Below, piece after piece: positions 4,664 through 55,037 of a stretch of 55,351 nucleotides of DNA. Each line of letters starts with the position of its first letter. Position 1 is the first letter of the stretch. This DNA comes from Chthoniobacteraceae bacterium (GTDB lineage Bacteria; Verrucomicrobiota; Verrucomicrobiia; Chthoniobacterales; Chthoniobacteraceae). A program made the translations under genes and the position numbers. Below the pieces are notes generated by a model that did no database searches, was not told where the DNA came from, and worked only from the letters and a program-made list of their open reading frames with translations. The stretch is from contig CANIWM010000034.1 of NCBI GenBank assembly GCA_947471505.1, forward strand, positions 1-55,351, in the 5' to 3' direction.

Positions 4664-5269
4664 GTGGCAGGAGAAAACAATCACAGCAAGGCCGGGCCGA
4701 GCGCCCGGCCTTTGCTCGTACTGGCATCCACTTCCCCGCGCCGCCGCTCGCTGCTCGCGGAACACGGCTACCACTTTGAAGTCGTCGCGCCCGACGGTGT
4801 GGAGGAGATCGCGCCGCCCGACCTTTCGCCGGGCGAGACGGTCCTCGCGAATGCTCGTGCGAAGGCCCGCGCCGTAGTGCGGCCCGACGCCACGGTGCTC
4901 GGCGTGGATACGGAGGTTTTCTTTGAAGGCCGAGTGCTCGGGAAGCCACGCGATATGGAGGACGCGTTCGCCATGCTCTCGCGGCTGAATGGGCGGACGC
5001 ATGAGGTTTACTCGGGCTGCTGGCTCGTGGCGACGAGCGACGAGCGTGGGTTTGTGGAGGTGACGCGCGTTCACTTTCACCACCGGAGCGATGACGCATT
5101 GCGCGCTTACCTCACCCGCATCGGCCCGCTGGATAAAGCAGGGGCCTACGCCGCGCAGAACGACGACGGAGAGATGATCGCCCGCGTGGAAGGCAGCTTT
5201 ACCAATGTGATCGGGCTGCCGATGGAGGCGCTGGCGCGTGAGTGCGCCAAAATGACGAGTGCCGAATGA
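4664..5269 (+). CDS. maf: Maf-family nucleoside triphosphate pyrophosphatase
   Basis: Hydrolyses non-canonical or modified nucleoside triphosphates to monophosphates in the cytosol (house-cleaning). The family's substrate loop ASTSPRRRSLL is at residues 21-31, followed by the acidic catalytic motif (GVDTEVFFEGRVLGKPRD) and RTHEVYSGCWLV, ending with YAAQNDDGEMIARVEGSFTNVIGLP, all in the usual order. With the GTG at 4664 the protein has 201 residues. A TTG at 4712 (then LVLASTSPRR) would give 185 residues, nearer the usual N-terminus, and would leave the strong hairpin at 4688-4712 outside the gene; I consider that start at least as likely. Its last six codons and stop lie inside the left arm of a palindromic element. 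Confidence 0.92.
   Translation: MAGENNHSKAGPSARPLLVLASTSPRRRSLLAEHGYHFEVVAPDGVEEIAPPDLSPGETVLANARAKARAVVRPDATVLGVDTEVFFEGRVLGKPRDMEDAFAMLSRLNGRTHEVYSGCWLVATSDERGFVEVTRVHFHHRSDDALRAYLTRIGPLDKAGAYAAQNDDGEMIARVEGSFTNVIGLPMEALARECAKMTSAE
4688..4712 (+). terminator. GC-rich hairpin, possible terminator before maf
   Basis: AAGGCCGGGC (4688-4697) pairs perfectly with GCCCGGCCTT (4703-4712) across a five-base loop. This is the form of an intrinsic terminator following the DUF4412 gene, though the T-run is only three bases (TTT at 4711-4713). It lies inside the first 17 codons of maf if the GTG at 4664 is used. Confidence 0.5.
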
Positions 5270-5307
5270 CAAACCGGCGAAACTTCGTCATTCGTCATTC
5301 GTCATTC
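5251..5307. repeat. Palindromic element with tandem GTCATTC words (copy A)
   Basis: The left arm (5251-5270) and the reverse complement of 5287-5306 match at 18 of 20 positions, with a loop of 16 bases. The right arm is three perfect copies of the seven-base word GTCATTC (5287-5307). The left arm overlaps the last codons and stop of maf. The same word forms the arm of copy B before mutL. Confidence 0.8.
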
Positions 5308-9955: not shown

Positions 9956-10153
9956 GCGGGCATGTCTAGTGGGTCGGCGGCGCTTTGCAAAGTGTCCCTT
10001 TTCCCGCCCAAGAATACTGTTGCCCGGACGTGGGAAAACCCGCATTTGAAGTGCAGCCATGCCGCTCTTTTTATTTGAACCCAACCGCCGAGTTTCCCTC
10101 CGCGTCTTCGCCGCGTTCGTGGTGACTTGCCTCTACGCGCTCTGGAGCTAGAG

Positions 10154-10203
10154 AAATGACGAGCGACGAGGTTTCGTCATTCGTCATTCGTCATTCGTCA
10201 TTT
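10154..10203. repeat. Palindromic element with tandem GTCATTC words (copy B)
   Basis: The left arm 10154-10169 pairs with 10188-10203 (14 of 16 positions). The right arm contains four tandem seven-base units: three GTCATTC and a final GTCATTT (10176-10203). It ends four bases before the ATG of mutL, so it covers the place where a ribosome-binding site would be expected. Confidence 0.8.
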
Positions 10204-10207
10204 CACC

Positions 10208-42084: not shown

Positions 42085-42100
42085 ATGCTGGGTTTGAGTA

Positions 42101-42196
42101 GTGAGTGGTGATTTGTCGCAAGCGACACGATGCGATTTCCATGAAAACTCGGACTGTTCGCTTGCGACGAATCACTTCTCACAAATCACCACTCAC
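42101..42196. repeat. Palindromic element with tandem words (copy C)
   Basis: The left arm 42101-42125 and the reverse complement of 42158-42196 agree except for a 14-base insertion in the right arm. That insertion is itself a near copy of the neighbouring 14-15 base word (GTGAGTGGTGATTT versus GTGAGAAGTGATTC). The inner part is TCGCAAGCGA/TCGCTTGCGA and the loop is about 32 bases. It ends seven to ten bases before the likely start of the desulfurase gene. Confidence 0.75.
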
Positions 42197-42205
42197 GACG
42201 CATTG

Positions 42206-45615: not shown

Positions 45616-46980
45616 ATGCGCTTCCCGCTCCAGTACAAGCTCGGCCTCTACGCAGCAGTCGTCTCCGCCATCGCCCTCATGCTGCTCCCCACCATCATGC
45701 CCCGCTACATTTACCATCGGCAGATGACCGAGCTGGATAAAGAGCTGCAAGACGGCACGGACGACCTTTTCAAAGACCTCGGCGAGCGCGCCGCCACGGG
45801 CATAGCCCCCCGCAAGCCTCTCACCCGCGACTTCCTCCAACCCTCGCTCCGCGCACGGCTCATCCGCATCACCAACCGCGACGGCTCCGAGCTTTACCGC
45901 TCGACGAACTGGCGCAACTTCGACCCCCGCACACTCCCCGTCGGGCATGCAACCGTCGTCATTCAGGATAAAGAAGGGCTCGACCGGAACTGCCGCGTCG
46001 TCACCGAAAGCAAGGGCGACTTCAACGTCAGCATCGGCACCCGCCTCGGCACGATCGAAGGGATGCAAGAGGACCTCAAGTTTGCCTTCAAAGTCGCCCT
46101 CCCCATCGTCTCCCTCCTTGTCCTCGTCGGCTCCTTTCTCGTCGCCCGCCGCGTCCTCCGCCCCATCGCAGCCATGACAGCCGCCGCCGAGCGCATCAGC
46201 GCCGAGCGCCCCAGCGAGCGCCTCCCTGTCCCCAATACCCGCGACGAAATCGCACGCCTCTCCCGAGTCCTCAACGCCTCCTTCGACCGCCTCGAAAAAG
46301 CCTACTCCGCCGCCGAGCGCTTCTCCTCCGCAGCCTCCCACCAATTCAAAACTCCCCTCACCGTCTTCCGCGCCGGCCTCAGCGAACTCCGCACCTGCGA
46401 CTACCTCCACCCCACCGAACGCGAAACCGTCGAATCCCTCCTCCAGCAAACCCGCCGCCTCACCACCCTCTGCGAAGACCTCCTCCTCCTCGCCAAGACC
46501 GATGCCGGGCGGCTCGAACTCCTCCCCGAGCCCCTCGACCTCATCCCGCAAATCCACCGCGCCATAGACGACATGGAAGTCCTCGGCCTCGACAACGACA
46601 TCACCGTCCAGCACACGCTCCCCGACACCCTCATCGCCCTCGCCGACCCCCGCCGCATCTCCATCATCCTCCAAAACCTCGGCGACAACACCGTAAAATA
46701 CAACCGCTCCCACGGCACCATCCACATCACCGCCCGAGAAGAAAAAGACACCGCCATCATCTCCGTCACCAGCACCGGTCCCTGCATCCTCCAGCAAGAC
46801 GCCGAGCGCATCTTCGAGCGGTTCAACCGCGGCAAGGCCAACGAGAACGTCAAAGGCCACGGCCTCGGCCTCAACATCGCCCGCGAACTCGCCCGCGCCC
46901 ACGGCGGCGACCTCCGCCTCGCCCGCTCCGAAGCCACCGGCACGCAGTTTGACCTCATCCTTCCCCTCGCCAAAACCTAA
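45616..46980 (+). CDS. HAMP-domain sensor histidine kinase
   Basis: A 454-residue kinase. Two transmembrane helices (LGLYAAVVSAIALMLLPTIM and FKVALPIVSLLVLVGSFLVA) bracket a periplasmic domain of about 130 residues. A HAMP linker follows (VLRPIAAMTAAAERIS). H242 in SSAASHQFKTPLTVFRAG is the phosphorylation site. ATPase boxes: QNLGDNTVKYN (N) and VKGHGLGLNIARELARAHGG (G). The sensing domain shows no known fold. Its stop codon is immediately followed by the ATG of purU with no gap, so the three genes are probably in one transcript. Confidence 0.92.
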   Translation: MRFPLQYKLGLYAAVVSAIALMLLPTIMPRYIYHRQMTELDKELQDGTDDLFKDLGERAATGIAPRKPLTRDFLQPSLRARLIRITNRDGSELYRSTNWRNFDPRTLPVGHATVVIQDKEGLDRNCRVVTESKGDFNVSIGTRLGTIEGMQEDLKFAFKVALPIVSLLVLVGSFLVARRVLRPIAAMTAAAERISAERPSERLPVPNTRDEIARLSRVLNASFDRLEKAYSAAERFSSAASHQFKTPLTVFRAGLSELRTCDYLHPTERETVESLLQQTRRLTTLCEDLLLLAKTDAGRLELLPEPLDLIPQIHRAIDDMEVLGLDNDITVQHTLPDTLIALADPRRISIILQNLGDNTVKYNRSHGTIHITAREEKDTAIISVTSTGPCILQQDAERIFERFNRGKANENVKGHGLGLNIARELARAHGGDLRLARSEATGTQFDLILPLAKT

Positions 46981-47835
46981 ATGCACAAAACCATCCTCAA
47001 ACTCACCTGCCCCGACCGCGTCGGCCTCCTCGCCCGCATCACCGCATTCATCGCCGAGCACGGCGGCAACCTCGACGAAGTCCACCAATTCACCGACTCC
47101 CAAGCCGGCTGGTTCTTCACCCGCATGGCCATCGAGACAGACACCCTCCGCCTCCCTCTCGCCCAGCTCCGCGCCGAATTCTCCCCCCTCGCCGCCGAAC
47201 TCAGCGCCCAATGGACCATCCGCCGCGAAGCCGACAAAATGCGCATCGTCCTCATGGTCTCCCGCCTCGGCCACTGCCTCGCCGACCTCCTCTGGCGCTG
47301 GAAAGCAGGCGAACTCCCCTGCGACATCGCCGCCGTCGTCGCCAACCACGAAGACTTCCGCACCACCGTAGAGCGCGAAGGCATCCCCTTCCACCACATC
47401 CCCTTCACCCCCGGCGAAAAAGCCGCCGCCTTTACCCAAATCGAGCGCATCTGGACGGATGCCGGAGCCGACCTCATCGTCCTCGCCCGCTACATGCAAA
47501 TCATCCCCCCTGACCTCTGCCACCGCTGGCAAGGCCGCATCATCAACATCCACCACTCCTTCCTCCCCTCCTTCGTCGGAGCCAACCCCTACCAACGCGC
47601 ATGGGAGCGCGGCGTGAAGCTCATCGGAGCCACCTGCCACTACGTCACACCCGACCTCGACGAAGGCCCCATCCTCGAACAAGAAGTCATCCGCGCCGAA
47701 CACTTCCACGACACCGAAGACCTCCTCCGCCTAGGCCGCGACTGCGAAAAACAAGCCCTCGCCCGAGGAGTCCGCTGGCACCTCTCCGACCGCGTCCTCC
47801 TCCACGGCAAACGCACCGTCGTGTTTCGGGATTAG
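46981..47835 (+). CDS. purU: Formyltetrahydrofolate deformylase
   Basis: A 284-residue enzyme that hydrolyses 10-formyltetrahydrofolate to tetrahydrofolate and formate, supplying formate for PurT and balancing the one-carbon pool. Residues 1-80 form the ACT domain (TILKLTCPDRVGLLARITAFIAEHGGNLDEVHQ) that responds to Met and Gly in other bacteria. The catalytic formyltransferase-like domain has HHIPFTP, LARYMQIIPPDLC, INIHHSFLPSFVGANPY, VTPDLDEGPILEQE, with the conserved His and Asp. It starts one base after the kinase's stop codon. Linkage of this folate gene to a two-component system is unusual. Confidence 0.95.
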   Translation: MHKTILKLTCPDRVGLLARITAFIAEHGGNLDEVHQFTDSQAGWFFTRMAIETDTLRLPLAQLRAEFSPLAAELSAQWTIRREADKMRIVLMVSRLGHCLADLLWRWKAGELPCDIAAVVANHEDFRTTVEREGIPFHHIPFTPGEKAAAFTQIERIWTDAGADLIVLARYMQIIPPDLCHRWQGRIINIHHSFLPSFVGANPYQRAWERGVKLIGATCHYVTPDLDEGPILEQEVIRAEHFHDTEDLLRLGRDCEKQALARGVRWHLSDRVLLHGKRTVVFRD

Positions 47836-49483: not shown

Positions 49484-51250
49484 ATGAGCACATTTATCTG
49501 GATTGAATCACCGGCCTGGCAACTCGACTTTTTTGGCATCCCGCACCGCATCCCATGGCCGGAGGGCGCGCCTGTGCCGGATGGGCAGCACGCGCAGTTC
49601 GACATGGCGGCGCTGCTCTCGGGCGTCGAGTCGTGCGTAAATGCGGAGCCGGGGCTCATCGGGCCTTGGCGCGGGTTTTTGGCGGCAGCGCAGCACTTTG
49701 ATGGGATGACGGAGGCGCTGGAAGACCATGAGTATTCCAAGGCGGGCGAGCTGCTGGCAGAAATCGAGAAACACCACGCGGAGTCACCGTATTCGCTCTT
49801 TCACCAAGCGTTCATCGCTCGGCAGTGTGGCAATGATCAGGAGGCGGTGCGCCTCTACGCAGCGGCAGCGGAGAAAGCTCCGGGCATCCCGTTCATCTGG
49901 GACAATCTCGGCACGATGCTGGCGGAAAATGGGAACCGCGAGCAGGCGATTCACGCTTTCATGAATGCGCTGCAAACGAACCCGCAGGACCAAGTCGCGC
50001 TGGAGTCGCTCGTGCAGCTCAAAGCGGCGGTGAAGCTACTGCGCGACCCGAAAGACCCGAAGAGCGCGGTAGTCGTGCCGATGGAGCAGTTCAAGCAAAT
50101 GGCCGAACAGCAGCTCGGGCAAATCGAGCAGCACCCGGAGCAAGTGCTCGCTTTCGGCGAACAACTCTTAAAAGACGGCCTCGTGCCGGAAGTCGGCATC
50201 GCCGCGCTGGAGAAGGCAAACGCGGCGCAGCCAGACCAGCCGCGCGTCCTCGTCGCACTCGGCGCGGGCTACCGGATGCTGGGCAAGTTTGAGGAGAGCA
50301 AGGCGGCGTTTTCGCGCTACTGTGAACTCCAGCCGCAAGACCCGTGGGGGCCGTTCAATCTCGCACAGACGCTGAACGCGATGGACGACAAGGATGGCGA
50401 GAAAGCCGCACTGGCAAAGGCGCTGGAGGTGGACCCGAACATCCAGCAGGCGCTCGGCATTCACTTTGAACTCAAAGGCGAGAACGACATCGAGAAGGAG
50501 AATCGCCTCGTCGCGTTCGCCGAAGAGCGCAGCGCGTGGATGCCGCTGCTCATCGCGAGCAGCATGGCGCGCGACCGGGGCGATGTGGCCACGGCGGTAA
50601 GCTACGTCGCGAAGGCGCATGAGCGGAATCCGAAGGCGGAAGAAGTCCTCCTGCAATACGCCGCGATGCTCGGCGATGCGAAAGACGCCACCACGCTGGA
50701 AGTCGTTATCCAGCCCGCAGTCTCCAGCGGTCGCTACACGAAGCGCCTCGATTGGAACTACGCGCAGTCGCTCCGCCAAGTGGACAAGACTTCGCAAGCT
50801 ATTGAAGCCCTGCGCCGCGCACAAATGGGGGACGCTCCGGCTGACTTCAAAGCAGCGGCGGAAAGCGCCATCGAGCACTGGACCGGCCTGCGCGCACAGA
50901 GCGGCGCGGCGATGGAGGTGCATGGCAGCGGCCAGCTCCTGCGCCCGCTCGTCCTTGCGCTGGAAGACGGCGACGGCGGCATGATTTTGAACCCACGGCA
51001 GGCGCTCCCCGCGCAGCACAAATTCCCATGGCGGGCCAACGGCAACGAAGCCCGCGTGAAGCTCCAGCAAGGCCAGACCGGCATCGGCGGCGCTCCCACT
51101 TCGCTCGGCACATTCGTCGTGCGCAATGTGACGCCGGCCACGGAGGGCAACACGACGGTGGAATGCCGCGTGGAAGCCACGCCAGACGGACGCCTCACGT
51201 TCACCGCCGGGCAAAACGGACGGAAGCTGCCGGTGGATTGGGAGGCATAA
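49484..51250 (+). CDS. Tetratricopeptide-repeat protein
   Basis: A 588-residue protein from ATG 49484 (MSTFIWIESPAWQLDFFG); it has no signal peptide. Residues from about 100 to 460 contain TPR-like pairs of helices (YSLFHQAFIARQCGNDQEAVRLYAAAAEKAP, FIWDNLGTMLAENGNREQAIHAFMNALQTNP, RVLVALGAGYRMLGKFEESKAAFSRY). The C-terminal 110 residues turn to beta strands (FPWRANGNEARVKLQQGQ, VECRVEATPDGRLTFTAG). The reason for its link with the permease gene (one base apart) is not apparent. Function unknown. Confidence 0.75.
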   Translation: MSTFIWIESPAWQLDFFGIPHRIPWPEGAPVPDGQHAQFDMAALLSGVESCVNAEPGLIGPWRGFLAAAQHFDGMTEALEDHEYSKAGELLAEIEKHHAESPYSLFHQAFIARQCGNDQEAVRLYAAAAEKAPGIPFIWDNLGTMLAENGNREQAIHAFMNALQTNPQDQVALESLVQLKAAVKLLRDPKDPKSAVVVPMEQFKQMAEQQLGQIEQHPEQVLAFGEQLLKDGLVPEVGIAALEKANAAQPDQPRVLVALGAGYRMLGKFEESKAAFSRYCELQPQDPWGPFNLAQTLNAMDDKDGEKAALAKALEVDPNIQQALGIHFELKGENDIEKENRLVAFAEERSAWMPLLIASSMARDRGDVATAVSYVAKAHERNPKAEEVLLQYAAMLGDAKDATTLEVVIQPAVSSGRYTKRLDWNYAQSLRQVDKTSQAIEALRRAQMGDAPADFKAAAESAIEHWTGLRAQSGAAMEVHGSGQLLRPLVLALEDGDGGMILNPRQALPAQHKFPWRANGNEARVKLQQGQTGIGGAPTSLGTFVVRNVTPATEGNTTVECRVEATPDGRLTFTAGQNGRKLPVDWEA

Positions 51251-51251
51251 A

Positions 51252-52658
51252 GTGGACTGGTGGCCGCTCGCAGTCTTGGGGATTGCGCTCGTCTTCATCG
51301 TGCTGGCGATTACGTGGTTTCGCGTCCACGTCTTCGTCGCGCTGGTGATGGCGGCGATCCTCACGGGTGGCCTCTCGCACACACAGCTCCCCGGCGAATA
51401 CGGCACGCTGCCGAAGACGCCGGGGAAAGAGAAAGGCCACTGGACCCGTGCAGCAGAGCTGACGGCGGAGGGCTTCGGCACGATGGCATCGAAGATCGGC
51501 ATCGTTGTGGCGCTGGCCGCCATCATCGGCGTCTGCCTCGTCGAGAGCGGCGCAGCGGAGAAAGTGGTGCGCCGCTTCCTCGCGCTGCTGGGGGAAAAGC
51601 GGGCGGGCCACGCGCTGTTTGTGAGCGGCTACGTGCTCTCCATTCCCATTTTCTTCGAGACGTATTTCATGCTGCTCATGCCCATCGCCCAAGCGCTGCA
51701 CGTCCGCACGGGCCGCAGCTATATGGCGTTCGTGCTGGCGATTTGTTGCGGAGGGACGATCACGCACTCCCTCGTCGCGCCGCATCCCGGCCCGCTGATG
51801 ATGGCGGAAAATCTCCACCTCGATGTCGGGCAAACCATCCTCGCCGGCATCTCCGCTGGCATCATCCCCGCGCTCGCCGCGTGGTGGCTGGCGCGGAAGA
51901 TCGCGGCGCGAGTCGCGGCACCGCTGCGGGATTCCGCAGGCGTGCGCGTGGCGGATTTGGAAGCGACGACTGCGCGCCCGGAATCCGAGCTACCCTCGCT
52001 GCTGGCCTCGCTCCTGCCCATCATTCTTCCGCTCGGTTTAATCGGATCGGTGTCCGTGCTTTCCGTGCTGCAAGTGCGGATGGATTGGCTGGCCTTCCTC
52101 GGCGAGCGGCACGTCGCCTTGCTCCTCGGAGCCATCGCCGCCATCGCGCTTGTCATGCGCCAGCGCGGACTGAGCATGGTGAAAGTGAACGCTCTCATCG
52201 GCCCGCAATTCGCCACAGCGGGCGTCATCATCCTCGTCTCCTGCGCGGGTGGAGCATTCGGCGCGATGCTGAAGCACGCAGGGGTCGCCAGCGTGGTGGA
52301 ATGGCTCGCTGTGCGCTGGGATTTGAACCTCGTCTTTTTAGCGTGGCTCATCTCCGCCATCATCCGCGTCGCGCAAGGCTCGGCGACGGTGGCCATGATG
52401 ACGGCCTCGGCCATCATGTTCCCCATCATCACCAGCGCGAAGCTGCCCTATCACTCCATCTACATCTTCCTCGCCATCGGCTTCGGCTCGAAAATGGTCT
52501 CGTGGATGAACGACAGCGGCTTTTGGACCGTGAGCAAAATCAGCGGCTTCACGGAAAAGGAGACGCTGCAAAGTTGGACAATCCTTGTCACGTTCGGTAG
52601 CCTCATCGGCCTCGTGCAGTGCCTCATCTGCTCGAAGCTCCTGCCTTTCGCGCCGTAG
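51252..52658 (+). CDS. GntP-family permease
   Basis: A 468-residue secondary transporter of the GntP (gluconate/sugar-acid) family, from GTG 51252, directly after the TPR gene's stop. About 12 hydrophobic helices are seen. Diagnostic motifs are SIPIFFETYFMLLMPIA, equivalent to the conserved FFE region, and SLVAPHPGPLMMAE (the PHPGP signature). ICRVAQGSATVAMMTASAIM near the end is also usual. Family members import gluconate, 2-keto-3-deoxy acids, D-serine or other organic acids with protons. Its neighbour 1.1 kb further on is a tagaturonate epimerase-like gene, so a uronate or aldonate substrate is a fair guess. Confidence 0.9.
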   Translation: MDWWPLAVLGIALVFIVLAITWFRVHVFVALVMAAILTGGLSHTQLPGEYGTLPKTPGKEKGHWTRAAELTAEGFGTMASKIGIVVALAAIIGVCLVESGAAEKVVRRFLALLGEKRAGHALFVSGYVLSIPIFFETYFMLLMPIAQALHVRTGRSYMAFVLAICCGGTITHSLVAPHPGPLMMAENLHLDVGQTILAGISAGIIPALAAWWLARKIAARVAAPLRDSAGVRVADLEATTARPESELPSLLASLLPIILPLGLIGSVSVLSVLQVRMDWLAFLGERHVALLLGAIAAIALVMRQRGLSMVKVNALIGPQFATAGVIILVSCAGGAFGAMLKHAGVASVVEWLAVRWDLNLVFLAWLISAIIRVAQGSATVAMMTASAIMFPIITSAKLPYHSIYIFLAIGFGSKMVSWMNDSGFWTVSKISGFTEKETLQSWTILVTFGSLIGLVQCLICSKLLPFAP

Positions 52659-52660
52659 GG

Positions 52661-53554
52661 TTACATCATCCAATTCAGCGCATCCTCGGCCGCACAGAGC
52701 CAGCCTTTGAGGGTCAAATAAGCGGTGGCTTTGATGCGGTTGAGCGTGCTGGAGCTTGATACGAGATCGCGGCGCATATCCGCCCAGTTGCTGGAGTTTC
52801 CGATGTTCGTAGAGAGCGAGATACTTGGGCTCAGCATCTGTGTCGTGTGCCACCAACCGCTCGGGATGAACAGCGTCTCGCCGGGCTCTAGGACAAAGAC
52901 GGCGGGCTTCGCCTTGGCAAAAAGCGGATACTTTTCGAGGTCCACGTTTTTGATGTCGGCGCAGAGCGAGATATTCGGGCAATCCTCGCGCGGGTAGAGG
53001 AACTTCGTTTGGTCTGGTCCATAGACGAAGAACTCCTTGCGCCCATGGAACTGCATGAGGAAGGCGTGCGTGTGGTAGCCGTCCCAGTGCAGCACCGGGA
53101 AGCCGCGCCCGTTCCCGCCGATGTAGAGCTCGATCGCGCTGCCGCGGTGGAAGAGTTCGCGGAATACCGCGTTGCGAAATGCGCGCTGCATCCAGTTGCG
53201 CCCGAAGTAAGGGTTATCGGGGCGGACGTCCTCCCACAGCTCGGGGAAATGCTCACGCAGCACTTGGTTGCGCAGATACGGCGCGGGGTTCGCGGGGTCG
53301 GAGGCGAGGACGGCGGAGATGAACTCGCCGAGCTTCCACGTCTTGCCATCCATCTCGAACGTCTTATCCGGCCAGCGCTCCGCGAAAAACTCCGGCGTCC
53401 ATTTGCCCAGCGCGGGCCACTTGGACAACATATCCGTGAGCACCAACGGGCGGCGCGGGAGCATGTAGTCGCGAAAAAACTCCTGCGGGCTCACATTGGC
53501 GCGCTTTTCGACGGTGGGCGCTGTGGCTCCCGTGCTGGATTGAGTCATTGTCAT
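52661..53554 (-). CDS. JmjC/cupin-like oxygenase
   Basis: A 297-residue protein of the cupin_8/JmjC-like group of Fe(II)/2-oxoglutarate enzymes. The facial triad is placed in PVLHWDGYHTHAFLMQFHGRKEFFVYGP (HxD) and LFIPSGWWHTTQML (second His), with the Lys/Phe positions for 2-oxoglutarate nearby (RKEFFVYGPDQTKFLYP). N-terminal part (FFRDYMLPRRPLVLTDMLSKWPALGKWTPE) matches the entry strands of the cupin_8 family. Substrates could be protein side chains or small molecules. It is cytosolic (no signal). It converges with the permease gene, two bases apart, and is divergent from the epimerase gene. Confidence 0.85.
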   Translation of the reverse strand: MTMTQSSTGATAPTVEKRANVSPQEFFRDYMLPRRPLVLTDMLSKWPALGKWTPEFFAERWPDKTFEMDGKTWKLGEFISAVLASDPANPAPYLRNQVLREHFPELWEDVRPDNPYFGRNWMQRAFRNAVFRELFHRGSAIELYIGGNGRGFPVLHWDGYHTHAFLMQFHGRKEFFVYGPDQTKFLYPREDCPNISLCADIKNVDLEKYPLFAKAKPAVFVLEPGETLFIPSGWWHTTQMLSPSISLSTNIGNSSNWADMRRDLVSSSSTLNRIKATAYLTLKGWLCAAEDALNWMM

Positions 53555-53651: not shown

Positions 53652-53720
53652 GTGGGCAGTAGTCAGTGGGGCGATTTCACTTCGCTTGCGACCGCCGACT
53701 GCCCACCGCCCACTGCCCGC
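53652..53720. repeat. Palindromic element with tandem words (copy D)
   Basis: The left arm 53652-53670 and the reverse complement of 53702-53720 match at 15 of 19 positions. The right arm contains repeated CACTGCCC/GACTGCCC words separated by short spacers. TCGCTTGCGAC (53682-53692) beside the stem is shared with copy C. It lies in the intergenic region between the divergent cupin and epimerase genes. Confidence 0.65.
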
Positions 53721-53786: not shown

Positions 53787-55037
53787 ATGATTCTCGAAAA
53801 ATTCACCATCGGTGTGGGCGACCGTTTTGCCCATCAGGCTAAGGCTCAACTTCAGGCGTGTGTGCAAGTCTCCAAGGATGGCGCGGATGTCGTCCCCGTG
53901 TGGAATAAATCCAACCGCGAGCACACCTTCATCGGCAGCGAACCCGCATCCGTGCTGGCTGCGGCGCAGGCGGCGGTGGCGGCGCTCGATTGGAAGAAAG
54001 GCTGGCATGTGGATGCCGACCACATCCGCATCGAGACGGTGGACCGCTTTCTCGAAGCGTCGGATTTCTTCACCATTGATGTCGCCGACAGCATCGGCCA
54101 AGCGGCGGAACCGGCGGACGTTTTCTCCTTTCTCGCCAAACATCCCGAGCTGATCGGGGCGCTCTCGATCCCCGGAGTCAGCGCGCCTTTTACCACCACC
54201 CGCGAGGAAATCGGGCGCATCGCAACGAAGTATCTGCGCGCTGTGCAGGACGCCGGGCGCATCTTCCGCCACATCTCCGTGCGCAAGGGTGGCGACGACA
54301 AGTTCATCGCCGAAGTCTCTATGGACGAAACCGACGCGCCGCAGACCCCGCCGGAGCTACTCGTCATCCTCGTCGCTCTCGCCGACGAAGGTGTGAAGGC
54401 GCAGACCATCGCGCCGAAGTTCACCGGGCGGTTTAATAAAGGCGTGGATTACGTCGGCGACCTCGCGCAGTTCGAGCGCGAGTTTAACGACGACCTCGCC
54501 GTCATCGCCCACGCTGTCGCCACCTACGGACTGCCCGCCAATTTGAAGCTCAGCGTCCACAGCGGCTCCGATAAATACTCCCTTTACCCCATCATCCGTC
54601 GCGCCCTCGCCCGCACCGGCGCAGGCGTCCACCTCAAGACGGCAGGCACGACGTGGCTGGAAGAAATCATCGGCCTCTCCGAAGCCGGCGGCGACGGCCT
54701 CGCGCTCGCCAAAGAAATCTACGCCTACGCCTTAGAGCATGTGGACGAGCTGTGCGCCCCCTACGCCTCCGTCATCGACATTGACCGCTCGCAGCTCCCC
54801 GCCGCAGACGTTGTGAATGGCTGGACGGGGCCACAACTTGCCAGCGCCGTCCGCCACATCCCCGGCCACCCCGAGTTCAACGCCAACATCCGCCAGCTCC
54901 TACACGTCTCCTTCAAGCTAGCCGCCAAAGCAGGCACCCGCTACACCGACTTGCTCAAAGCCAACGAAGCCATCGTCGCCAAGAACGTCATTGAAAACCT
55001 TTACGACCGCCACCTCCGCCCGCTGTTCGTCGGGTAG
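53787..55037 (+). CDS. uxaE: Tagaturonate epimerase-like enzyme
   Basis: A 416-residue protein from ATG 53787. It matches the pattern of tagaturonate/fructuronate epimerases (UxaE): GWHVDADHIRIETVDRFLEASDFFTIDVADSIG, TGRFNKGVDYVGDLAQFEREF, LKLSVHSGSDKYSLYP, HLKTAGTTWLEEIIGL and WTGPQLASAVRHIPGH. These enzymes interconvert D-tagaturonate and D-fructuronate in galacturonate catabolism. The GxDKYSLYP and the His/Asp/Glu groups are likely metal ligands (inference). The Thermotoga enzyme is slightly longer. With the GntP-like permease it may belong to a pectin-uronate pathway. It is preceded by a palindromic element. Confidence 0.8.
   Translation: MILEKFTIGVGDRFAHQAKAQLQACVQVSKDGADVVPVWNKSNREHTFIGSEPASVLAAAQAAVAALDWKKGWHVDADHIRIETVDRFLEASDFFTIDVADSIGQAAEPADVFSFLAKHPELIGALSIPGVSAPFTTTREEIGRIATKYLRAVQDAGRIFRHISVRKGGDDKFIAEVSMDETDAPQTPPELLVILVALADEGVKAQTIAPKFTGRFNKGVDYVGDLAQFEREFNDDLAVIAHAVATYGLPANLKLSVHSGSDKYSLYPIIRRALARTGAGVHLKTAGTTWLEEIIGLSEAGGDGLALAKEIYAYALEHVDELCAPYASVIDIDRSQLPAADVVNGWTGPQLASAVRHIPGHPEFNANIRQLLHVSFKLAAKAGTRYTDLLKANEAIVAKNVIENLYDRHLRPLFVG

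Follow-up and report, generated by a model that had tools for sequence, protein, structure and literature searches.

A worn inverted repeat of tandem heptads and the intergenic word hairpins of a Chthoniobacteraceae genome

The palindrome at positions 53,652-53,720, here element D, is a real but worn inverted repeat. We read it as a degraded representative of a class of inverted doublets between genes that would be non-autonomous and mostly selfish, copied in trans, with arrays renewed by the spread of variants, and give this reading a probability of roughly 0.45. The unit, some 28 nt long, typically consists of four tandem heptads (GTGA-n-T-n in the class of element C) and then an inner core, often GTCGCAAGCG. 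Two such units face each other across a variable loop and can fold as a hairpin. Whole doublets come and go in spacers, as REPINs or MITEs do, and their words change at free positions, in one whole arm, or entirely. The anatomy, the copy number, the presence or absence of elements between sister species, the differing words at shared sites and one hybrid were observed directly. An enzyme acting in trans would do the copying, and arrays would later be renewed as variant heptads spread along them, probably with no function for the host.

Element D and the core it shares with C

The window, 55,351 nucleotides long, is the whole of contig C34 in a genome (G000) of 6,068,697 bases and 153 contigs, with a G+C content of 61% in the part sampled. 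A crude ORF call places D between two genes that diverge: a Cupin_8/JmjC-like gene on the minus strand (52,661-53,554) and the tagaturonate epimerase-like gene uxaE on the plus strand (53,787-55,037). The 5' arm (53,652-53,672, plus strand), delimited by sequence and inverted repeat, consists of three degenerate heptads, GTGGGCA, GTAGTCA and GTGGGGC. The inner core (53,682-53,692), located by pattern search, is TCGCTTGCGAC on the plus strand and GTCGCAAGCGA on the minus strand. The 3' arm (53,693-53,720, minus strand), delimited by sequence, inverted repeat and tandem period, holds the four heptads GCGGGCA, GTGGGCG, GTGGGCA and GTCGGCG. Read on its minus strand, D displays four tandem heptads of GTNGGCR type followed by GTCGCAAGCG, and a tandem repeat of period 7/14 was detected on its 3' side.

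The arms of D are 82% complementary across 17 nt (53,654-53,670 and 53,702-53,718). Among 1000 dinucleotide shuffles, two reached its inverted-repeat score, none its period-7 score and none both. The element is missing from the list of our de novo scan because its inverted-repeat score, 10.2, is below the threshold of 11.5. As RNA it folds weakly above chance (z = -1.81, with 9 of 200 shuffles equally good).

Three other hairpins in the window were compared with it. Element C (42,094-42,197, plus strand) is a hairpin of GTGANTN-type heptads with the core GTCGCAAGCG...CGCTTGCGAC on both sides, and is flanked by genes for a response regulator and a class-V aminotransferase. Elements A (5,251-5,306, plus strand) and B (10,153-10,204, plus strand) are hairpins of AATGACG heptads; A is upstream of a PSD1/PSCyt gene, and B, with four heptads on one arm, is directly upstream of mutL. 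For each of the three, none of 1000 dinucleotide shuffles matched both the inverted-repeat and the period-7 score, and none of 200 folded as well as RNA (z of -7.68 for C, -5.31 for A and -5.70 for B).

An earlier note on this DNA had reported that C and D share a core beside stems of different words. The core is present in both, TCGCTTGCGAC occurring on the plus strand at 42,158-42,168 and 53,682-53,692, and also on the minus strand at 42,115-42,125, which is the other arm of C. The stem words do differ, although their order was swapped if C versus D was meant: C is of the ATCAC type and D of the CTGCCC type. The note had also held that a core at random frequency would speak against a family. 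The frequency is at chance: the 11-mer is enriched neither in the window (4 matches with at most one mismatch, 2.98 expected) nor genome-wide (7 matches, 8 for the reversed pattern). Its placement is not, since six of the seven genome copies lie inside five heptad hairpins and one in coding-like sequence, and we therefore rejected a chance origin of the shared core.

The class of word hairpins in the genome

Further palindromes with tandem arms, for which the earlier note had proposed a genome-wide search, do exist. A sample of 1.255 Mb contained 167 hairpins (85 in Markov sequence), 32 of which had tandem arms (3 in Markov sequence); about ten of the 32 are, by eye, REP, terminator, coding or long-repeat cases. 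Words of period 7 include GTGANTN, AATGACG, CAATCAA and AAATAGC, and there are longer words of eight (AGTCAGGG), nine (GTCCATNNN and CGCAGATTN) and ten bases (CGCTAATCTN).

The GTGANTN words form the best sampled class. A pattern of three such heptads plus GT, with at most one mismatch, matched the genome 53 times and not at all when reversed, and 18 elements lie behind these matches. Exactly four heptads are present in 26 of their 31 detected arms (the rest have 3, 3, 2, 2 and 5), a count that under-samples arms shorter than three heptads because the elements were picked by a three-heptad pattern. Position 6 is T in 100 of 119 heptads; positions 5 and 7 are mixed, and the two arms of an element mismatch freely there. 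The third word counted from the outside is often GTGAGAA, so that the arms resemble copies of a single module some 28 nt long, and aligned elements end, by eye, in T-GTGA...TCAC-A. The AATGACG word is nearly invariant. Neither of these words contains a GGG tract, which is present in some D-type words.

D's own word recurs in seven further palindromes recognised by eye among the loci printed (7 of 11), on contigs C54, C31, C4, C26 (twice), C39 and C63. It is on these palindromes that the siblings of D rest, and not on the search with two mismatches, whose 25 matches against 21 for the control mark such matches as noise. Arrays of D's class spread over 2-6 units by a crude chain count, and in one D-type element (L301) the arms agree with each other by eye. 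The idea of one plan with changing words is therefore borne out, in a family larger than first seen (18 GTGANTN elements, seven siblings of D and further words). That each element sits in a gene leader holds in part: many occupy short spacers that follow a stop or precede a start, but D lies between divergent genes and some elements fall inside mechanical ORFs (crude ORF call).

Two simple rules of word formation were rejected. Copying of one arm from the opposite arm would raise their agreement at the free positions, and nine GTGA elements with four-word arms agree at position 5 in 18 of 36 cases (18.4 when shuffled) and at position 7 in 11 of 36 (10.6 when shuffled). A universal word of four fixed positions followed by a free, a fixed and a free one fits the GTGA class, and D's class only in part; we retain it solely within the more speculative single principle considered below.

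The same sites in a sister genome

We compared 31 elements with their sites in the genome of a sister species (G006), whose long matches to G000 are mostly 88-97% identical: a single flank served to locate 30 of the 34 listed elements (19 of 20 and 11 of 14), and uxaE served to locate D. The word is kept at 14 sites (C4a, C9b, C15, C55, C70, C98, C5, C34, B, p2b, p12c, p13, p20 and A), of which p20 is anchored on the left only and A on the right only, with an AATGACG palindrome upstream of the orthologous right-hand gene in G006. A palindrome of a different word stands at eight sites. Five of them have both flanks in place (C9a, changed to GTTGAGA; C38, p7 and oct, changed to AATGACG; C124, changed to GTCCATNNN) and three are anchored on the left only (C12, C35 and C47, all changed to AATGACG). 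At r20 the G006 site holds a REP-type palindrome, and C26 is a hybrid in which the loop and one arm are kept and the other arm is four CTCTCAA heptads. The element is absent at six sites, with both flanks in place for C2, s2, q8 and D and anchorage on one side for p2 and r11; C66 fell into none of these groups. None of the G006 loci compared matches the right flank of C12, C35, C47, p2 or p20.

D is missing from G006 along with its Cupin_8/JmjC-like neighbour. Occupied and empty sites, the sign of REPIN-type mobility, are thus seen for C2, s2, q8 and D, in an unpolarised comparison. In the other direction, G006 has elements without a counterpart in G000 at window positions 51,250-51,253 and 46,975-46,981. 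No target-site duplication was seen by eye at C2 or D, which counts against our preferred reading.

Sites are also re-used. Among nine two-flanked sites that did not keep their element (C2, C9a, C38, p7, oct, s2, q8, r20 and C66; C124 and D, also two-flanked, were left out of this test), four carry another word. The binomial chance of this is 0.002 at the rate of 32 tandem-armed hairpins per 472 sample spacers and 0.034 at a rate of 0.15. Permissive hot spots would lift the expected rate, and re-use by another word could reflect such permissive spacers, a further point against the preferred reading. Rewriting in place is likely, with direct evidence in the single hybrid C26.

That hybrid would also fit plain heptameric microsatellites, in which slippage makes and renews arrays in place, nothing moves and inverted pairing is secondary. 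Heptamers are reported to be over-represented among bacterial repeats, with polymerase slippage suggested as the cause (work cited in the available part of PMC4692102), and other genomes of the phylum hold direct arrays of varying length. Against slippage stand the exactly four units in 26 of 31 arms and the whole doublets that are absent where both flanks are in place, and we consider it rather unlikely as the main explanation.

Within kept words, GTGA and T6 are held and positions 5 and 7 are free. In nine GTGA elements including C26, changes between the genomes number 7/248 in GTGA, 13/62 at position 5, 2/62 at position 6, 13/62 at position 7 and 92/1789 in the flanks; the eight kept elements without C26 give 15/108 at positions 5 and 7 together, 2/216 in GTGA and 79/1589 in the flanks. 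The free positions change faster than the flanks at p = 2e-6 for nine elements and, for positions 5 and 7, at p = 0.0006 without C26. Faster change than in the flanks was nevertheless rejected as a general rule: it depends on C5 and C26, without which the counts are 8/92 and 75/1389 (p = 0.24). Change is uneven, with 0/72 in C4a, C9b and C15 together and 9/24 in C5, whose flanks have 4/200.

The alignments also contained differences of other kinds. In one spacer (L076:15619-15704 in G000, L205 in G006) two unrelated kinds of palindrome occupy the same site, one of the word CGCTAATCT and one of the REP type CAAGGAGGGGG. A GTCCATNNN/TGGACNNN palindrome of about 75 nt in G006 (L195:10449-10526), possibly within a coding region, is absent at the aligned place in G000 (L183, about 4220). 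Between L186:7181-7479 (G006) and L171:2981-3240, some 260-300 nt are unrelated inside otherwise conserved sequence, which looks like a replaced gene segment.

Possible movers, readers and relatives

We wondered whether the hairpins might be a RAYT-mobilised REP/REPIN family in the strict sense, a link that the earlier note had raised. They resemble REP/REPIN sequences as described in the available part of PMC3733652 in being short intergenic palindromes in inverted doublets and many copies, subject to gain and loss, and the genome has nine Y1_Tnp genes. They differ from that description in their arms of tandem words, in having no linked RAYT and in the GTAG or CGTC end tag, which was not seen by eye at the ends of GTGA elements. 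No word hairpin and no period-7 run of at least 9 turned up in the nine Y1_Tnp loci, which were covered with about 1.5 kb to either side (less where one contig ended), so the RAYT link is not supported and we rejected RAYT as the mover; the strict family is quite unlikely. At least four of these loci carry other palindromes in several copies. At L029, L032, L033 and L035 (C2, C97, C100 and C1 of G000), Y1_Tnp (RAYT-like) genes stand beside multi-copy palindrome families of their own (ATGAGCCCTGTAAGGGCG, AAGGAGCGGCGGCATTCC, GGAGCGGGGCTTTCC and AAAGTAGC[TC]CGCGAG), some of which are dispersed in the genome sample.

Manufacture of the words by a reverse transcriptase was rejected as well: the 3.6 kb locus of the one RVT_1 gene (C40) has no period-7 run, tested word or core. 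That neither a transposase nor another mover could be tied to the class counts against the preferred reading, copying in trans.

The arrays might instead be binding sites for a protein, for instance an RHH protein reading 7-bp steps as ParB/Omega of pSM19035 reads WATCACW. The held GTGA and T6 beside free positions 5 and 7 would suit such reading. The parS sites of pSM19035 are likewise 7-bp repeats with an ATCAC core, and full activity requires a minimum of four in a row, making them another four-heptad precedent; as far as the available part of the source describes them, they differ in being plasmid partition sites of 7-10 repeats, in promoters (PMC9499535). The PF07764 profile had no matches in G000, and likewise none in control genomes. 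The many different words in one genome and the gain and loss between sister species speak against a binding function, and we regard it as improbable. Transcript hairpins (terminators, attenuators or mRNA stabilisers) are most doubtful: C, A and B fold far above shuffles and several elements lie near a stop or start, but D sits between divergent genes and folds weakly, Rfam gave no match at gathering score in the window, and positions 5 and 7 are free to mismatch between the arms.

Cyanobacteria have tandem heptamers of several words per genome, the heptameric STRR sequences, and we know of no inverted four-word plan among these. Our searches of open-access papers returned no report on such elements in Verrucomicrobia.

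The closest described repeats are the intergenic heptamers GGGAATC/GGGANTN of Xanthomonas and GGGGA(C/T)T of Nostoc (Rehm et al. 2015, PMC4692102). As presented in the available part of that paper, the majority have four units, positions 1-4 and 6 are conserved and 5 and 7 free, inverted pairs number 70 and 75 cases, and two related genomes mostly have their arrays between corresponding genes, with differences in length and sequence. On that account the GTGA class is alike in being intergenic and heptameric, with four units, conserved positions 1-4 and 6 and inverted pairs, and in often keeping its place in related genomes while length and sequence vary. The pattern of conserved positions extends in part to D's class, the AATGACG class being nearly invariant, and the preference for four units extends to D's 3' arm. 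The call of an "undescribed system" was therefore too strong.

Set against the same account, the present elements stand apart in having several words per genome, a shared inner core and different words at the same sites of sister species. The Xanthomonas and Nostoc heptamers are discussed there as G-quadruplex formers; GTGANTN and AATGACG have no G-tract, though some D-type words hold GGG. Since the same four-unit inverted plan exists here without G-tracts, quadruplexes cannot explain the four units in general, and the number four in heptamer repeats needs another cause. The TAACTGA direct repeats of Beggiatoaceae, Cyanobacteria and Bacteroidetes (MacGregor 2015, PMC4679880) are similarly intergenic tandem heptamers near starts and patchy among phyla; the available part of that source describes one fixed word in direct orientation (one indirect repeat is reported) and no inverted doublets. 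We regard the elements described here as heptameric intergenic repeats of a new sort, REPIN-like in anatomy and working, and as a fast-changing kind of repeat described only in part so far. A sister pair that shows a hybrid, and sites at which the words differ, makes it testable how these common, neglected repeats arise.

A single principle could conceivably lie behind GTGANTN, GGGANTN (Xanthomonas, Nostoc) and WATCACW (pSM19035), although we think it improbable too. Four contiguous 7-bp sites would be read by word-specific repeat-binding proteins or by a copying enzyme, each word being one specificity, and the hairpins would be mobile or rewritable intergenic labels. The hybrid C26 suggests that their word would be switched one arm at a time.

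Across 288 genomes of the phylum, 21, among them G000, contain four GTGANTN heptads in a row. Since GTGATTA arrays also fit the reversed pattern, which reached 193 matches on one strand of one genome, we did not take that pattern as a null. Among 30 loci inspected, one (G000) is plainly inverted, L222 has an inverted pair 160 nt apart and the others are direct; that arrays elsewhere in the phylum are mostly direct also counts against the preferred reading. Three AATGACG heptads (20 bases) occur in 10 of 288 genomes, again including G000, and at least two loci outside it, L264 and L284, look inverted. This distribution makes the inverted form with four words look like the local version of heptamer repeats that are more widespread. 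When named genomes were searched exactly for two GTGATTN heptads together with the core, three stretches were returned: a MAG labelled Prosthecobacter debontii supplied two, each a hairpin, and the third, from an alphaproteobacterial MAG, is not a hairpin. On this result the host probably belongs to the Verrucomicrobiota.

For a third-species comparison, 13 of 19 loci in G009, G003 and G004 were read (all except L248, L249, L251, L253, L261 and L263). Ten showed no word-like repeat evident by eye, and other word-like repeats were seen by eye at the sites of C9a in G009 and of C55 and C47 in G004. Upstream of the uxaE orthologue, the congener G003 (L083) shows, by eye, a palindrome built on a different heptad word, GCAAATT/AATTTGC, and G011, from another genus of the family (L090), has tandem ten-base words of CCTGCACGCT type.
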